Shown one piece after another: positions 2,318-8,749 of a stretch of DNA of 64,000 nucleotides; within the stretch, counting starts at the first letter, position 1, and each line of letters opens with the position of its first letter. Source of the DNA: Gemmataceae bacterium (GTDB lineage Bacteria; Planctomycetota; Planctomycetia; Gemmatales; Gemmataceae); contig JANWYO010000142.1 of assembly GCA_025055215.1 (NCBI GenBank), forward strand, positions 1 through 64,000, in the 5' to 3' direction. Made by a program: the position numbers and the translations under genes. The notes beneath the pieces were generated by a model. That model worked only from the letters and a program-made list of their open reading frames with translations, did no database searches and was not told where the DNA came from.

Positions 2318-5300
2318 TCAGCCGAACAGCATCCCGGCATAGCCGACGACCCGGCTGGTGTCGCCGGTGACGTCGGCGGATGTGGCATAGGCCACGCGCT
2401 CGGACCGGGTCGGTCGACCGAGCCGATGCAGCGTCTCGAGCACGATCACCGCCGGTAGGACGCCGCACATGCTGATGTTGTTCTCCATGACGGTGTCGTA
2501 GACGGCCTCGGGATCGAGCCGGTCGAGGGCGGACAGGGCGAGCTCGTCCAGCTGCCGCGTTTCTGCGTCGGTGGCGAAGTGGTTCATGTCACTGGAAATG
2601 ACCAGCAGCGGCTGCTCGTCCAGGCTGCGAAGGACACCGGCGAGGCCGTCGGCGAAGGCCCGGCAACTCTCCAAGTCGCCGCCGCCGATGGTGATGCCGA
2701 CGACGCGCGTTCCCGGGGCCAGCCGGGCCAACAGGGGCAATTCGACCTCGATGCCGTGCTCGCGTTGGTGGGCAGCGGCGTCGAGTTCCAGCCCGGGAAT
2801 GGCCTGGGCCAGCGCACGGGCCAGGGCCGGGTCCGATGGCAGGCTACCTCCCGGAAACGCCCAGGTCTCGTGCGGGGCCACCGCCCAATCCATGCCCAAG
2901 GAAGTGTGCTTCGGTCCCAGGATGATGACCGTGCGCGGGATACGGACCCGCCGCAAGACCTGGGCCGCAATCCGCCCGGAGTAAATCCAGCCGGCGTGCG
3001 GCACCATGACGGCCGGCCAATTCTCCGAACGCCGCTCCCCCTGGAGCAGGGTATCAAGCATTCGCTGCACGTCGTCGGGGGTGCCGGGATAGAAGGTGCC
3101 GGCCACGGCCGGGGGCCGAATGGCCGGCCCGGCCACGGGACGCGGGGCGGTCGAGAGCGCCACCCGCGGCTCGGTGGTGGCGCATTCCAGGCTGAAGACC
3201 GCTGACGACGCCGGGCGTGACACCCGGGCCTGTCCGGCGGCCAACTCCAGCAACCGCTCCGCAGGCTGTTCCGGGTCGCGGACAATGCCCATCTTATTCC
3301 GTTCCATCACCAGAACGGCCCGATGCTCCGGCTCAACGCCGGCCAAGTCAGGATCGGCCACGGTGCCGTGCAGCGACGTGTCAAAGAAGATCGACACACC
3401 AACGGCCAGCGATTCGAGTTCTTCCGCCGATATTCCGCGCGCCGCCAGGGCTTGAGCGGCGTTCTGCGACAGGGCGAACAGAGTTGATTGCAACGGTACT
3501 CCCGGTCGCATCGATAGCTGAAAGAAGTGCAGGGCGTCGGAACTTCTTGGCGGCCGAACGCTCACATGGACCCCGGCGACCTGACCGTCGGCCAGGCCGG
3601 GAAGATAGTAGATCGGAACGGCGCCGCACAGGTGGTTGATGATGTTGCGGCGACAGAAATCGGCATAGGCTTGCAGCTGCTTCGCCCCGGGCTTGGCGGG
3701 ACGCCGGGCCATCGAAGCGCCGTTGGCGTGGGGCTGAAGCCGGCCACGGATGACATCTCCCTCGAAACGGTACAGTTCCGTGGCGTCATCCTTCCACAAC
3801 GAAGGATGCAGACCTGCCTTGACGCATACCTGTTCGAGGAAAGTTCGCACGTCCCAGGCGTGATCGACAGGTACGCCCGGCAGGAGCAAGCCGCGGGCCT
3901 GACCGCGGACCACCTGCAAGCCGTGTCGGCCTATCGTCACCGCCTGAAGCCGTTCCTCACCGCGGGCTTCCACCCGCTCCGGGCGATGCAGTACCCAGAT
4001 TTCCAGCTTAAGGTGTTCCAGTTCCCTCCCTGAGACGGGAGGGAAACGGGCGTCGTCCCAGACGGTCCGTTCGACGGCGTCGTGTAAGGCCGCGGCCAAG
4101 GGAATGGCCGGGCCGAGCTGGCCGCAACAGCCGCGAAGATGCCGGCCGCGTTTCAGGCTGACAAACGCCCCGGCCACGGGCCGGTCAGCGGCCCCGGCCA
4201 GGGTGGGGTCCGACAGATAGGCCGGCCGGCGCTGCACGCTGGCATGGATCAACTCGGCCGTGGCCGTGAGAATCGCCCGTTCCTGCTCGGGAGAAAACCG
4301 GCTTGCCGGAGACGACGCGGCGGTCGGGGCGGTGGGGGTTGGCAGCGGCATGGTTTGCATCCCTCCGACGGCAACAGTGGGCTTCTCGACCTTGGGAATC
4401 GGCACTTCCGAGGGTGTCGTCATGGCTCGGGGCCGCCGCGACAGGTAGGCGCGCAGGTCGTTGCCGGTGCGGACCTCCTCGGGCGATTTCGGCCACACGC
4501 CCGGCAGGGGCGTTTGACAATCCGGACAGCGCCCCTCCGGCGTGATGCGGTACGACCGCACCAGGTAACCGATACGCTCAATCACCGTACTTTGGCACTT
4601 CGGACAGCGGGTGTTTTCCCACGGGCCGACCTCGCCCGGCCGGTTCCCCGCATAGACAAAGCGCAACCCCTCCTCGGCACCGATTTCCGCGGCCTCGATC
4701 AGCTGCCGGGCTGTGGTGTTGTCCGGCTCGGTCATGCGGTAATCTTTGTGAAAGGCGGTGACGTGCCAGGGAATGTCGGGGCTGACCGAGGCAAGAAAGC
4801 GGGCCGTGTCGCGCAGTTCCGCCGGGCTGTCGTTGAAGCCTGGCACGATCAGGGTCACGACCTCGAGCCAGATGCCGCGGTCGTGGATGCCACGGATGGT
4901 GTCCGTCACTTGGCGAAGTGTGCCGCCCAGGGTGCGGTAGTGACGTTCGCTGAAGCACTTCAGATCGACCTTGTACGCCTGGATCCACGGCTTGAGGAAG
5001 TCCAGCACTTCCGGGGTCGCGTTGCCGTTGGAGACAAAGGCGCACGTCAGGCCGGCCAGCGCGGCCTCCTGAAAGACGGCCACGGCCCATTCGGCGGTGA
5101 TGAGCGGTTCGTTATAGCTGGACACGACCAGCCGGGCGCCTTCACGCCGCGCCATGGCCACCAACTGGGCCGGGCTGACAGGACGGATGGGGGCCACGGC
5201 CTGCTCATCCCGCAAGGCTTGGCTGGTGAGCCAGTTCTGGCAGTAGGCACAGTGCAAGTCGCACCCCATCATGCCGAACGTCAGGGCGTCGCTGCTGGGG

Positions 5301-5584
5301 TAGACATGGAAAAACGGTTTTTTCTCCACCGGATCGCACTGCAAGGCCGCCACGTAGTGGAACGGCACCCGCAATTGGCCATCCCGTTCAAAGCGGACCT
5401 TGCAAATGCCGCGCTGCTCGGGCCCGATGAGGCAGCGGTGACCACACGCCACGCAGCGGATCCGCTCCCCCTCGCGGTGCCAGAGCGTCCCGATGGTCGT
5501 GTGACGGTCCAGGACCTCGGCCAAGGTCGGATTGGCAACCCGTGTTTTCATCGTTGGCAAACGTCGCAGTTGGAACGGAAGCAT
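2318..5584 (-). CDS. AmmeMemoRadiSam fusion: radical SAM + two AMMECR1-like domains + MEMO
   Basis: A single 1088-residue protein joins all three parts of the AmmeMemoRadiSam system. Residues 30-380 are the radical SAM enzyme: Cys108, Cys112 and Cys115 (CDLHCAYC) would bind the 4Fe-4S cluster, with Cys pairs at 44/47, 327/330 and 353/356. A Pro/Ala-rich linker (390-430) leads to an AMMECR1 domain (432-616; RHLRGCCGQL and DARFPP). A second, diverged AMMECR1-like segment spans about 637-800. Residues 822-1088 are a MEMO domain, with PHAGWIYSG, GPKHTS, SSDMNHF and MCG placing the conserved His, His and Cys. These parts are usually separate genes. The biochemical reaction is not established to my knowledge. 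ATG at 5584 or in-frame ATG at 5551 could be the start. Divergent from putA. Confidence 0.9.
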   Translation of the reverse strand: MLPFQLRRLPTMKTRVANPTLAEVLDRHTTIGTLWHREGERIRCVACGHRCLIGPEQRGICKVRFERDGQLRVPFHYVAALQCDPVEKKPFFHVYPSSDALTFGMMGCDLHCAYCQNWLTSQALRDEQAVAPIRPVSPAQLVAMARREGARLVVSSYNEPLITAEWAVAVFQEAALAGLTCAFVSNGNATPEVLDFLKPWIQAYKVDLKCFSERHYRTLGGTLRQVTDTIRGIHDRGIWLEVVTLIVPGFNDSPAELRDTARFLASVSPDIPWHVTAFHKDYRMTEPDNTTARQLIEAAEIGAEEGLRFVYAGNRPGEVGPWENTRCPKCQSTVIERIGYLVRSYRITPEGRCPDCQTPLPGVWPKSPEEVRTGNDLRAYLSRRPRAMTTPSEVPIPKVEKPTVAVGGMQTMPLPTPTAPTAASSPASRFSPEQERAILTATAELIHASVQRRPAYLSDPTLAGAADRPVAGAFVSLKRGRHLRGCCGQLGPAIPLAAALHDAVERTVWDDARFPPVSGRELEHLKLEIWVLHRPERVEARGEERLQAVTIGRHGLQVVRGQARGLLLPGVPVDHAWDVRTFLEQVCVKAGLHPSLWKDDATELYRFEGDVIRGRLQPHANGASMARRPAKPGAKQLQAYADFCRRNIINHLCGAVPIYYLPGLADGQVAGVHVSVRPPRSSDALHFFQLSMRPGVPLQSTLFALSQNAAQALAARGISAEELESLAVGVSIFFDTSLHGTVADPDLAGVEPEHRAVLVMERNKMGIVRDPEQPAERLLELAAGQARVSRPASSAVFSLECATTEPRVALSTAPRPVAGPAIRPPAVAGTFYPGTPDDVQRMLDTLLQGERRSENWPAVMVPHAGWIYSGRIAAQVLRRVRIPRTVIILGPKHTSLGMDWAVAPHETWAFPGGSLPSDPALARALAQAIPGLELDAAAHQREHGIEVELPLLARLAPGTRVVGITIGGGDLESCRAFADGLAGVLRSLDEQPLLVISSDMNHFATDAETRQLDELALSALDRLDPEAVYDTVMENNISMCGVLPAVIVLETLHRLGRPTRSERVAYATSADVTGDTSRVVGYAGMLFG

Positions 5585-5731
5585 CTCCCCGGTAGGCGTT
5601 GTGGGCCGCTCCTCAGCTCAGGCCGCCACCAGGGTTTCCTCCATTGTATCACCCCGGAGCGGCGCCATACGATAGGCCGTGCCCGCCGGTCCCGGCCAAT
5701 CGGCTGGGACCGGCGGCTGGGCAGGGCTGGC

Positions 5732-8700
5732 ATGGCGCGCGCTTCCCGAGATGTCGAAGAGCTGACCCAAGCCTTTGGCCGGGCGATCTTCTCCCGCCTC
5801 GACAGCGGCGGCCCGGTCCCCTGGGGACCGGCGTGGTGGCAAGAACGGCTGCTCGACCTGACCATGAGCGACGAAGCGGTCAAGGTCCAGCTGTTCCGCT
5901 TCATCGACGTCTTGCCGATGCTGCGGACGCCCGAGGCGATCTGTCGGCACTTGGGTGAGTATGGGACCGAAGAAGGCGTTCGCCTGCCGCCTTGGTTGCG
6001 CCGCTGGGGACGTCGGCTGCCCCGCTCGGGCCCGATGGCGCGACTGCTGGCGTGGCTGGCCCGCCGCCAGGCAGAACGCCTGGCCCGGCGGTTCATCGCC
6101 GGCGGCAACCTCGACGAGGCCCTGGAGGTCATCGCCCAGCTGCGGCAGCGGTCGCTGGCTTTTACTATCGACCGCCTCGGCGAGGCAACCATCACCGAAG
6201 CGGAAGCCGACCTCGCCCAGGCAGACTACCATCACCTGATCACCGGCCTGGGGCCGCACGTCAATTCCTGGCCCTACGAACCTCGGATCGACCGCGACGA
6301 CCAAGGTCCCTTGCCGCGGGTCAACATCTCCGTCAAGTTGTCGGCACTCTACAGCCAGTTCGACCCCATCGACCCCACGGGCACCAGCGCCGCGGTGCGT
6401 GCCCGGCTGCGGCCGCTGCTTCGGGCCGCCCGCCAGCAGCGCGTCTTCATCCACATCGACATGGAACATTATGCCGTCAAGGACCTGACGCTGCGGATTT
6501 TCCGCGACCTGCTTGAGGAAGAGGAGTTTCGTGACTGGCCCGACGTCGGCATCGCCATCCAGACCTATCTGCGGGAAACGATGACCGATCTCGAGGAGTT
6601 GGCCCGCTGGGTCGAACGCCGAGGGACTCCCGTCTGGGTGAGGCTGGTGAAAGGTGCGTATTGGGACTACGAGACGGTTATCGCCGCTCAGGAAGGTTGG
6701 CCGGTCCCGGTTTTCCTCCACAAGTCCGAAACCGACGCCCACTATGAGAATGCAACTCGCTTCCTCCTCGAGCAGCGGGCCCTCCTTCGACCGGCGTTCG
6801 GCACCCACAATGTGCGCAGCTTGGCCCACGTCCTGGCGTGGGCCGAGGTCCTCGGTCTGCCGGCGGGCAGCTTCGAGTTCCAGATGCTTTATGGCATGGC
6901 AGAGCCGATCAAGGAAGTCCTCGTCGGCCTGGGTCAGCGCGTCCGGGTCTACACGCCTTACGGCGAGCTGCTGCCCGGCATGGCCTATCTGGTGCGGCGG
7001 CTGTTGGAAAACACGGCTAATGAGTCGTTCCTGCGGGCGAGCTTTGCCGAACACGTGGCCGAGGAGAGATTATTGATGAACCCAAGTCAGCAATCCCACG
7101 CGGCGACATCAGCCCCTCGGGAACCCTTGCTACCAGCGATGCCCCCCGACACGTGCGCCATCTTTCGGAACGAGCCGCTCGCCGACTTCAGCCGGGCGGA
7201 AAATCGCCGAGCGATGCAGCGGGCGTTGGCCCAGGTCGCGGAGCAGTTCGGTCGATGCTATCCGCTGGTGATCGCTGGTCGAAAAGTCGAGACGGAGGGG
7301 GTCATCGAGTCGGTCAATCCGTCGCATCGGCGGCAGGTGGTTGGCCGCTGCGGGCGTGCGACGGCGGAGCACGCCCGCGCCGCCGTGGCGGCGGCGCGGG
7401 CCGCGTTCGCGTCGTGGCGCGACACCGAGCCCAGGCGCCGGGCGGAGTTCCTCTTCCGGGCTGCTGAGGTCCTGCGGCGACGCCGCTTTGAACTGGCTGC
7501 CTGGGAGGTTTCCGAGTGCGGCAAGCCGTGGCGCGAGGCCGACGCCGACGTGGCCGAGAGTATTGACTACTGCGTCTATTACGCCCAGGAGATGCTCCGG
7601 CTGGCCCAGCCCCGGCGACGCGATTTTCCCGGCGAAGACAACGCCTACTTCTACGAGCCACGCGGCGTGGCCGTGGTCATCGCGCCGTGGAACTTTCCGT
7701 TGGCGATCCTCTGCGGCATGACGACGGCCGCCCTCGTCACTGGGAACACCGTGATCATGAAGCCGGCCGAGCAGTCGTCGGTGGTCGCCGCCAAGCTGAT
7801 GGAAGTCTTTGAAGAGGTGGGCCTCCCCCCCGGAGTGGTGCACTATCTGCCCGGCATCGGCGAGGAGGTAGGCCCGGTGCTCGTGCAGCATCCGGACGTG
7901 GCGCTGATCGCGTTTACCGGCTCGAAGGCCGTCGGCTTGCTGATTAATCGTCAAGCCGCCGAGATGGTCCCCGGTCAGGATCACGTCAAACGGGTCATCG
8001 CCGAGATGGGCGGCAAGAACGCCATCATCGTCGATGACGACGCCGACCTGGACGAAGCCGTCCTCGGCATCGTGCGAAGCGCCTTCGGCTACGCGGGGCA
8101 GAAATGCTCGGCCTGCTCCCGCGTCGTCGCTCTGGCCGACATCCACGATGCGCTGCTGGCCCGATTGGTAGAGGCCACCCGCAGCTTGAAGATTGCCCCG
8201 GCCGAGGACCCCAGCTGCGGCCTCGGTCCGCTCATCGACGATGAGGCCCGCCAGCGGGTGCTGCGCTTCGCGGCCATCGGCCGGGAGGAGGGAAAATTGG
8301 CGTATGCAGCCGACGTCGGCCCGTGGGCCGACGAAGGCTTCTTCGTCGGCCCCCACATCTTCGCCGACGTGGCACCGACCGCCGTCATCGCCCAAGAGGA
8401 GATTTTCGGGCCGGTCTTGGCGGTCCTCAAGGCGCGGGACTTTGACCACGCCCTGGAGATTGCCAACGGCACCAGTTACGCCCTGACCGGAGGGCTGTAC
8501 TCACGAAGTCCCGGCCGCATCGCCCGCGCCAAAAAGGAGTTCCGGGTCGGCAATCTGTACATCAACCGCAAGATTACCGGGGCCCTGGTTGATCGTCAGC
8601 CGTTTGGAGGTTTCAAACTCTCCGGGATCGGCTCGAAGGCGGGCGGGCCGGATTATCTCCTCCAGTTCCTCCTCCCGCGAACCGTCACGGAGAATACCCT

Positions 8701-8749
8701 GCGGCGGGGCTTCGCGCCCTCTCCGTCGGCCCAGGCGGTTGCAGGATGA
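5732..8749 (+). CDS. putA: Bifunctional proline dehydrogenase / glutamate-semialdehyde dehydrogenase
   Basis: Oxidises proline to glutamate in two steps, P5C being passed between the two sites. The protein has 1005 residues. Residues 140-445 are the FAD-dependent proline dehydrogenase barrel (IDMEHYAVKD, RLVKGAYWDYE, FGTHN). Residues 475-990 are the aldehyde dehydrogenase, with catalytic Glu758 in EMGGKN, nucleophile Cys792 in GQKCSA, and an APWNFPL NAD-site motif. No N-terminal ribbon-helix-helix DNA-binding domain is present, so this is the short, non-autoregulating type. The frame is open far upstream, but that part is antisense to the neighbouring gene; ATG 5732 begins the family-like region. 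The 147-base gap to the divergent AmmeMemoRadiSam gene should hold both promoters. Confidence 0.93.
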   Translation: MARASRDVEELTQAFGRAIFSRLDSGGPVPWGPAWWQERLLDLTMSDEAVKVQLFRFIDVLPMLRTPEAICRHLGEYGTEEGVRLPPWLRRWGRRLPRSGPMARLLAWLARRQAERLARRFIAGGNLDEALEVIAQLRQRSLAFTIDRLGEATITEAEADLAQADYHHLITGLGPHVNSWPYEPRIDRDDQGPLPRVNISVKLSALYSQFDPIDPTGTSAAVRARLRPLLRAARQQRVFIHIDMEHYAVKDLTLRIFRDLLEEEEFRDWPDVGIAIQTYLRETMTDLEELARWVERRGTPVWVRLVKGAYWDYETVIAAQEGWPVPVFLHKSETDAHYENATRFLLEQRALLRPAFGTHNVRSLAHVLAWAEVLGLPAGSFEFQMLYGMAEPIKEVLVGLGQRVRVYTPYGELLPGMAYLVRRLLENTANESFLRASFAEHVAEERLLMNPSQQSHAATSAPREPLLPAMPPDTCAIFRNEPLADFSRAENRRAMQRALAQVAEQFGRCYPLVIAGRKVETEGVIESVNPSHRRQVVGRCGRATAEHARAAVAAARAAFASWRDTEPRRRAEFLFRAAEVLRRRRFELAAWEVSECGKPWREADADVAESIDYCVYYAQEMLRLAQPRRRDFPGEDNAYFYEPRGVAVVIAPWNFPLAILCGMTTAALVTGNTVIMKPAEQSSVVAAKLMEVFEEVGLPPGVVHYLPGIGEEVGPVLVQHPDVALIAFTGSKAVGLLINRQAAEMVPGQDHVKRVIAEMGGKNAIIVDDDADLDEAVLGIVRSAFGYAGQKCSACSRVVALADIHDALLARLVEATRSLKIAPAEDPSCGLGPLIDDEARQRVLRFAAIGREEGKLAYAADVGPWADEGFFVGPHIFADVAPTAVIAQEEIFGPVLAVLKARDFDHALEIANGTSYALTGGLYSRSPGRIARAKKEFRVGNLYINRKITGALVDRQPFGGFKLSGIGSKAGGPDYLLQFLLPRTVTENTLRRGFAPSPSAQAVAG

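Follow-up and report, generated by a model that had tools for sequence, protein, structure and literature searches.

The AmmeMemoRadiSam system (AmrA/AmrB/AmrS; TIGR04335, TIGR04336 and TIGR04337) is typically encoded by neighbouring separate genes. Both MEMO and AMMECR1 are conserved as far as humans and are linked to disease, and to our knowledge they have no agreed reaction; a search of the literature for a reaction shared by the AmmeMemoRadiSam components likewise found none. A locus in a 64,000-nucleotide stretch of Gemmataceae bacterium DNA (assembly GCA_025055215.1, contig JANWYO010000142.1, positions 1 to 64,000; the window) holds all three families in one open reading frame, together with a further segment, here called MID. 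This raises the question of what the frame encodes, and whether joining the components in one chain fixes their ratio.

A four-part open reading frame

The frame is free of internal stops and carries the following features.

2318..5584, minus strand: whole fused ORF, 1088 aa; start ATG 5584, possibly ATG 5551
4475..5482, minus strand: radical-SAM domain (AmrS-like), aa 35-370, subfamily rS1 (TIGR04337, 263 bits; tree)
5240..5263, minus strand: CDLHCAYC, the [4Fe-4S]-binding CxxxCxxC motif, aa 108-115 (sequence; kept in 54/54 fused proteins)
3752..4267, minus strand: AMMECR1 domain (AmrA), aa 440-611 (PF01871, E 2e-37; TIGR04335)
4121..4138, minus strand: LRGCCG motif, aa 483-488 (sequence; L, R, C486 and G kept in 54/54)
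2324..3118, minus strand: MEMO domain (AmrB), aa 823-1087, with metal ligands H863, H893 and C1040 (PF01875/TIGR04336)

The first-pass annotation had placed radical SAM, AMMECR1 and MEMO in a single 1088-residue frame, and a profile search of each segment bore this out. Pfam matched Radical_SAM at residues 107-264 (E 9e-16), AMMECR1 at 470-611 (E 2e-37) and Memo at 825-1085 (E 2e-56). Scores with the NCBIfam models were 263 bits for TIGR04337 (cut-off 220), 125 bits for TIGR04335 (cut-off 99) and 263 bits for TIGR04336 (cut-off 26). The motifs it had named were all found (CDLHCAYC at 108-115, LRGCCG at 483-488, PHAGW, GPKH and SSDMNHF). The gene thus resembles the AmmeMemoRadiSam system in having all three families above their curated cut-offs with motifs intact; it differs in being one ORF rather than separate genes, in an extra degenerate AMMECR1 and in a predicted internal start.

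Examination of 54 fused proteins revealed that C108, C112 and C115 of the radical-SAM domain were invariant, as were its N- and C-terminal Cys clusters, the LRxC and G positions of AMMECR1, and H863, H893 and C1040 of MEMO. Because these residues are invariant, each part of the fusion is predicted to be, and should be, active. The three MEMO residues align with the ligands of human MEMO1, in which H49, H81 and C244 bind Fe at a site resembling that of extradiol dioxygenases (PMC11081632). The human protein (PDB 7KQ8, 3BCZ) shares the fold family and the His/His/Cys metal ligands with the window's MEMO domain, but it is a separate protein of ~294 aa, whereas the domain described here is fused behind two AMMECR1 folds.

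No component of the system was found elsewhere in the same genome, and the fused ORF is its sole copy. It converges on a NAD-dependent epimerase/GDP-mannose dehydratase-like gene, diverges from putA and is therefore very likely monocistronic. A long ORF antisense to the fusion (4139-8749, plus strand) simply extends putA in an open frame on its 5' side; putA, which has PutA_N, Pro_dh and Aldedh domains, probably starts at ATG 5732.

The distribution of the fusion was analyzed in the best 80 loci from a set of 84,980 species, each represented by a single genome. In about 72 of these best 80 loci, a single ORF of some 1050-1200 aa carried radical SAM, AMMECR1, MID and MEMO, and in a few AMMECR1-MID-MEMO was a separate gene. 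The survey of fused architectures that the first-pass annotation had proposed thus found the four-part chain to be common in Planctomycetota, the phylum of nearly all carriers, and the rarity that the annotation had implied was not borne out. The four-part fusion is the standard planctomycete form and no oddity of the window. In a phylum sample, MID occurred in 13/392 genomes compared with 176/394 for a radical-SAM relative. These counts also bear on the concern that a frameshift or assembly artefact had merged neighbouring genes. The window's genome is a draft of 347 contigs, which would speak for such an artefact, but the same long ORF recurs in dozens of independent assemblies and is carried by single-contig genomes (G050, G054, G350, G289, G435 and G358); an artefact is therefore excluded, and we regard its probability as vanishingly small.

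Several other arrangements were observed. A two-domain MEMO-AMMECR1 fusion (e.g. L034, G052, 572 aa) likewise joins two components, but in the opposite domain order and lacking both MID and the radical-SAM part. In L131 (Fuerstiella), the radical-SAM gene (4661-5983) and AMMECR1-MID-MEMO (5809-7953) lie in overlapping separate frames; its close relative L138 is fused, and the split is either natural or a sequencing error in the linker. A MID-containing long ORF was present in 2/95 genomes labelled Candidatus Rokuibacteriota (L228 and L229, in G656 and G724), reflecting lateral transfer or misbinning. A MID-like match in G035 (L035) lacked a coherent ORF and was rejected as chance. No conserved operon partner that would explain the function was found, the commonest neighbour occurring in 15/80 loci. 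This neighbour belongs to a family of small proteins (one member carries GGTEFVIDFVQNLGAPAHVVARVVMP) whose genes share the strand of the fusion and lie immediately before it, at most about 200 nt away (e.g. L132:1116-1811); it is absent beside the window's gene.

A degenerate AMMECR1 fold

The segment between AMMECR1 and MEMO had been described in the first-pass annotation as a diverged second AMMECR1-like copy (637-800).

3152..3691, minus strand: MID, second degenerate AMMECR1-fold domain without LRGC(C)G, aa 632-811 (profile-profile comparison, AlphaFold2, Foldseek)

Pfam matched no family on residues ~632-811, the PF01871 model matched 0/17 MID members, and a MID profile, for which homologues were gathered from relatives, had no match among PDB sequences. 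Profile-profile comparison of MID with the adjoining AMMECR1 domains gave an end-to-end match over 168 collinear columns (P = 2.5e-6; 1.6e-5 and 4.7e-7 with other sequence sets), while ten column-shuffled controls gave 0.1-0.5 and a reversed control 0.23. The domain was modelled with AlphaFold2 (pLDDT 90.3; 79 sequences in the alignment) and compared with the PDB using Foldseek. Only AMMECR1 structures matched with E<0.001: 1vaj, chains A and B of 1zq7, and 1wsc, at E 8e-7 to 7e-5, TM 0.45-0.51 and a probability of 1.00. These are the closest solved structures to the AMMECR1 domain and, by fold, to MID. Since the profile-profile match and the fold match both lead to AMMECR1, MID is a real, degenerate, duplicated AMMECR1 fold in which LRGCCG has been lost. 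The claim of a second copy therefore stood on profile-profile comparison and on fold, but not with the Pfam model PF01871.

Unlike the three AMMECR1 structures, MID has no LRGC(C)G and goes unrecognised by PF01871. Alignment with AMMECR1 confirmed that the LRGC(C/I)G motif is absent and that the conserved residues of MID differ; its own conserved positions are G654, P657, D666, P697, Q699, G740 and S798. MID is also more variable than its neighbours, with a top-residue frequency of 0.49 compared with 0.67 for AMMECR1 and MEMO. The same domain order with a strongly diverged MID was found in L025 (G046) and L225 (G628), and an AMMECR1 HMM failed to recognise either. Most likely, MID would partner the active AMMECR1 domain in a structural or pseudo-subunit role, which suits its lost motif and kept fold at least as well as docking of a substrate or partner would.

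The linker and its candidate internal start

The radical-SAM domain is separated from AMMECR1 by a linker that contains a candidate translation start.

4304..4462, minus strand: disordered P/T/A-rich linker, aa 375-427 (pLDDT about 30 over model residues 345-395; sequence unconserved)
4362..4366, minus strand: internal Shine-Dalgarno (SD) GGAGG, predicted -10.0 kcal/mol with the anti-SD
4349..4351, minus strand: candidate internal start ATG (Met412), 10 nt after GGAGG
2318..4351, minus strand: predicted second product AMMECR1-MID-MEMO, Met412-1088, 677 aa (stand-alone gene versions exist)

In the whole-chain model, ~50 residues between radical SAM and AMMECR1 had a pLDDT of about 30, while AMMECR1-MID-MEMO was mostly above 90; with a pTM of 0.64, the model leaves the arrangement of the domains relative to one another uncertain. 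Homologous linkers share 31-38% nucleotide identity, which is near-random, and their purine content peaks at -13 to -9. An 'ESALQWLA'-like peptide is conserved in the linker of one clade (L084, L086, L091, L096, L105, L114 and L121), following the internal ATG in the majority of those seven genes.

SD strength was calculated with the anti-SD ACCUCCUUUCU taken from the genome's own 16S gene, whose tail ACCTCCTTTCT is present in that genome. An in-frame ATG was found in 58/66 non-redundant linkers, mostly 16-21 codons before AMMECR1, and linker ATGs were biased towards the reading frame (83 in frame versus 34 and 4 in the two alternative frames). An ATG with an SD of -5 kcal/mol or stronger was present in 47/66 linkers, compared with a mean of 13.5 and a maximum of 23 after codon shuffling; at -8 kcal/mol or stronger the count was 28/66, compared with a mean of 3.1 and a maximum of 9. 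The median SD energy was -7.35 at linker ATGs and -2.7 at the in-frame ATGs that these genes carry outside the linker (P = 5e-21, with related genes counted as independent). The enrichment was retained in a stricter set of 42 more divergent genes (25 versus 7.7 shuffled, maximum 14) and on synonymous resampling of the linkers (39 observed, mean 25, maximum 33). SD cores of at least 5 nt preceded 25/83 linker ATGs compared with 25/1574 elsewhere, and no SD-ATG enrichment was detected at the other two domain junctions. T, A or S directly followed the linker ATG in 26/42 cases, versus about a third across the linker. In 14 Gimesia-group genes, AGAAAGGT...ATG was invariant and the rest of the linker variable.

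The SD and in-frame ATG are thus beyond chance and kept across relatives, as looked for in genes with an internal start. About a quarter of the linkers have no good SD-ATG, and 8/66 have no ATG, so the internal start is not universal. The GGAGG-ATG spacing of 10 nt in the window's gene is rather long, and its SD strength is attained in 7.5% of synonymous resampling trials. Because the linker holds a conserved SD and in-frame ATG, the fused gene probably also makes an AMMECR1-MID-MEMO protein free of radical SAM (677 aa here). Stand-alone AMMECR1-MID-MEMO genes were found in G052, G004, G002 and L106.

We consider it likely that the gene encodes a single-chain system in which radical SAM is tethered to an AMMECR1-MID-MEMO block and an internal start gives two products. 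The protein would comprise two mechanical units, an N-terminal radical-SAM enzyme on a flexible tether and a well-folded C-terminal block. Ribosomes would also initiate at the ATG in the tether, giving the full-length enzyme and AMMECR1-MID-MEMO without radical SAM, and the ratio of radical SAM to core would be set by two initiation rates and not fixed at 1:1. In the order of chemistry that we infer, the AMMECR1 unit, with MID as its pseudo-partner, would hold the substrate; a 5'-deoxyadenosyl radical generated by the radical-SAM domain would act on it, and a coupled redox step would take place at the non-heme His/His/Cys metal site in MEMO.

Two other readings were weighed against this one. 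The gene could be a plain fusion with one product, its SD-ATG the unused relic of the start of a separate AMMECR1-MID-MEMO gene. Such genes exist, so a start of this kind once existed, and the tree allows fusion and splitting to recur; however, a relic in a fast-evolving linker is expected to fade, whereas the SD and ATG persist in linkers that are otherwise near-random and form the invariant part in the Gimesia group, and we regard this reading as rather improbable. The first-pass annotation had proposed that fusion fixes a 1:1:1 complex in which MID docks a substrate or partner. That one chain holds all components, and that MID is kept as a domain despite its variable sequence, would agree with this proposal, but no docking or binding motif turned up in MID, the tether is flexible, and the predicted second product argues against a fixed 1:1:1 complex. 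We therefore think the proposal unlikely: the one-chain fusion and the diverged AMMECR1 fold stand, while the fixed stoichiometry is doubtful given the disordered linker and conserved SD-ATG.

Two radical-SAM subfamilies and the meaning of the fusion

Phylogenetic analysis revealed two radical-SAM subfamilies among the fusions, rS1 and rS2, which form separate, fully supported clades. The window's gene and the fusions of G464, G482 and G480 carry rS1, and the remaining fusions examined carry rS2; the TIGR04337 score was 263 bits for the window's domain compared with about 600 for most planctomycete fusions. The rS1-fusion lineage corresponds to family f1, taken as Gemmataceae from one member. 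In the tree the rS1 fusions fall within stand-alone rS1 enzymes from other planctomycetes, and an rS1 gene adjoins the split system of G004. Their AMMECR1-MID-MEMO cores, in contrast, are close to rS2-fused cores (MEMO about 60% identity), and the core tree agrees. Because the radical-SAM clades are distinct, yet the attached cores are close, the module of the rS1 fusions was either exchanged or independently joined. The rS1 fusions were nested among rS2 fusions in the free tree, but an AU test retained an rS1-first alternative (P = 0.77), so that replacement and independent fusion are indistinguishable. Stand-alone rS1 enzymes without a nearby AMMECR1 or MEMO gene occur in many planctomycetes (L032, L033, L029 and L206-L219). 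No shared neighbours of these enzymes were found, and the G040 and G041 genomes contained no MEMO or AMMECR1 match to the window's protein.

Taken jointly, two proteins made via a selected internal ribosome-binding site, a MID pseudo-subunit and a radical-SAM domain exchanged in the window's lineage form a combination that we hold to be somewhat more probable than its failure in any part. A Memo/PCAD superfamily survey by Burroughs et al. (2019) reportedly covers Memo-AMMECR1-radical-SAM associations. No description of the internal start or the radical-SAM exchange was found in the literature searched, which did not extend to the main Memo survey; the AmmeMemoRadiSam system is already known, and these two features appear to be new. 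In PMC11899642, Cas11 from type I cas8-like genes similarly arises as a shorter second product from an in-frame internal start; the proteins are unrelated, and internal translation is experimentally demonstrated there, whereas it is predicted for the window's gene.

A gene with all parts settles which proteins act together and offers a single construct for expression, and heterologous expression of the fusion may give two products. That a degenerate AMMECR1 stands next to an active copy is a hint that AMMECR1 operates in pairs. From the conserved internal start, one would predict that the AMMECR1-MEMO core and the radical enzyme are required in unequal amounts, which would provide a mechanistic clue.
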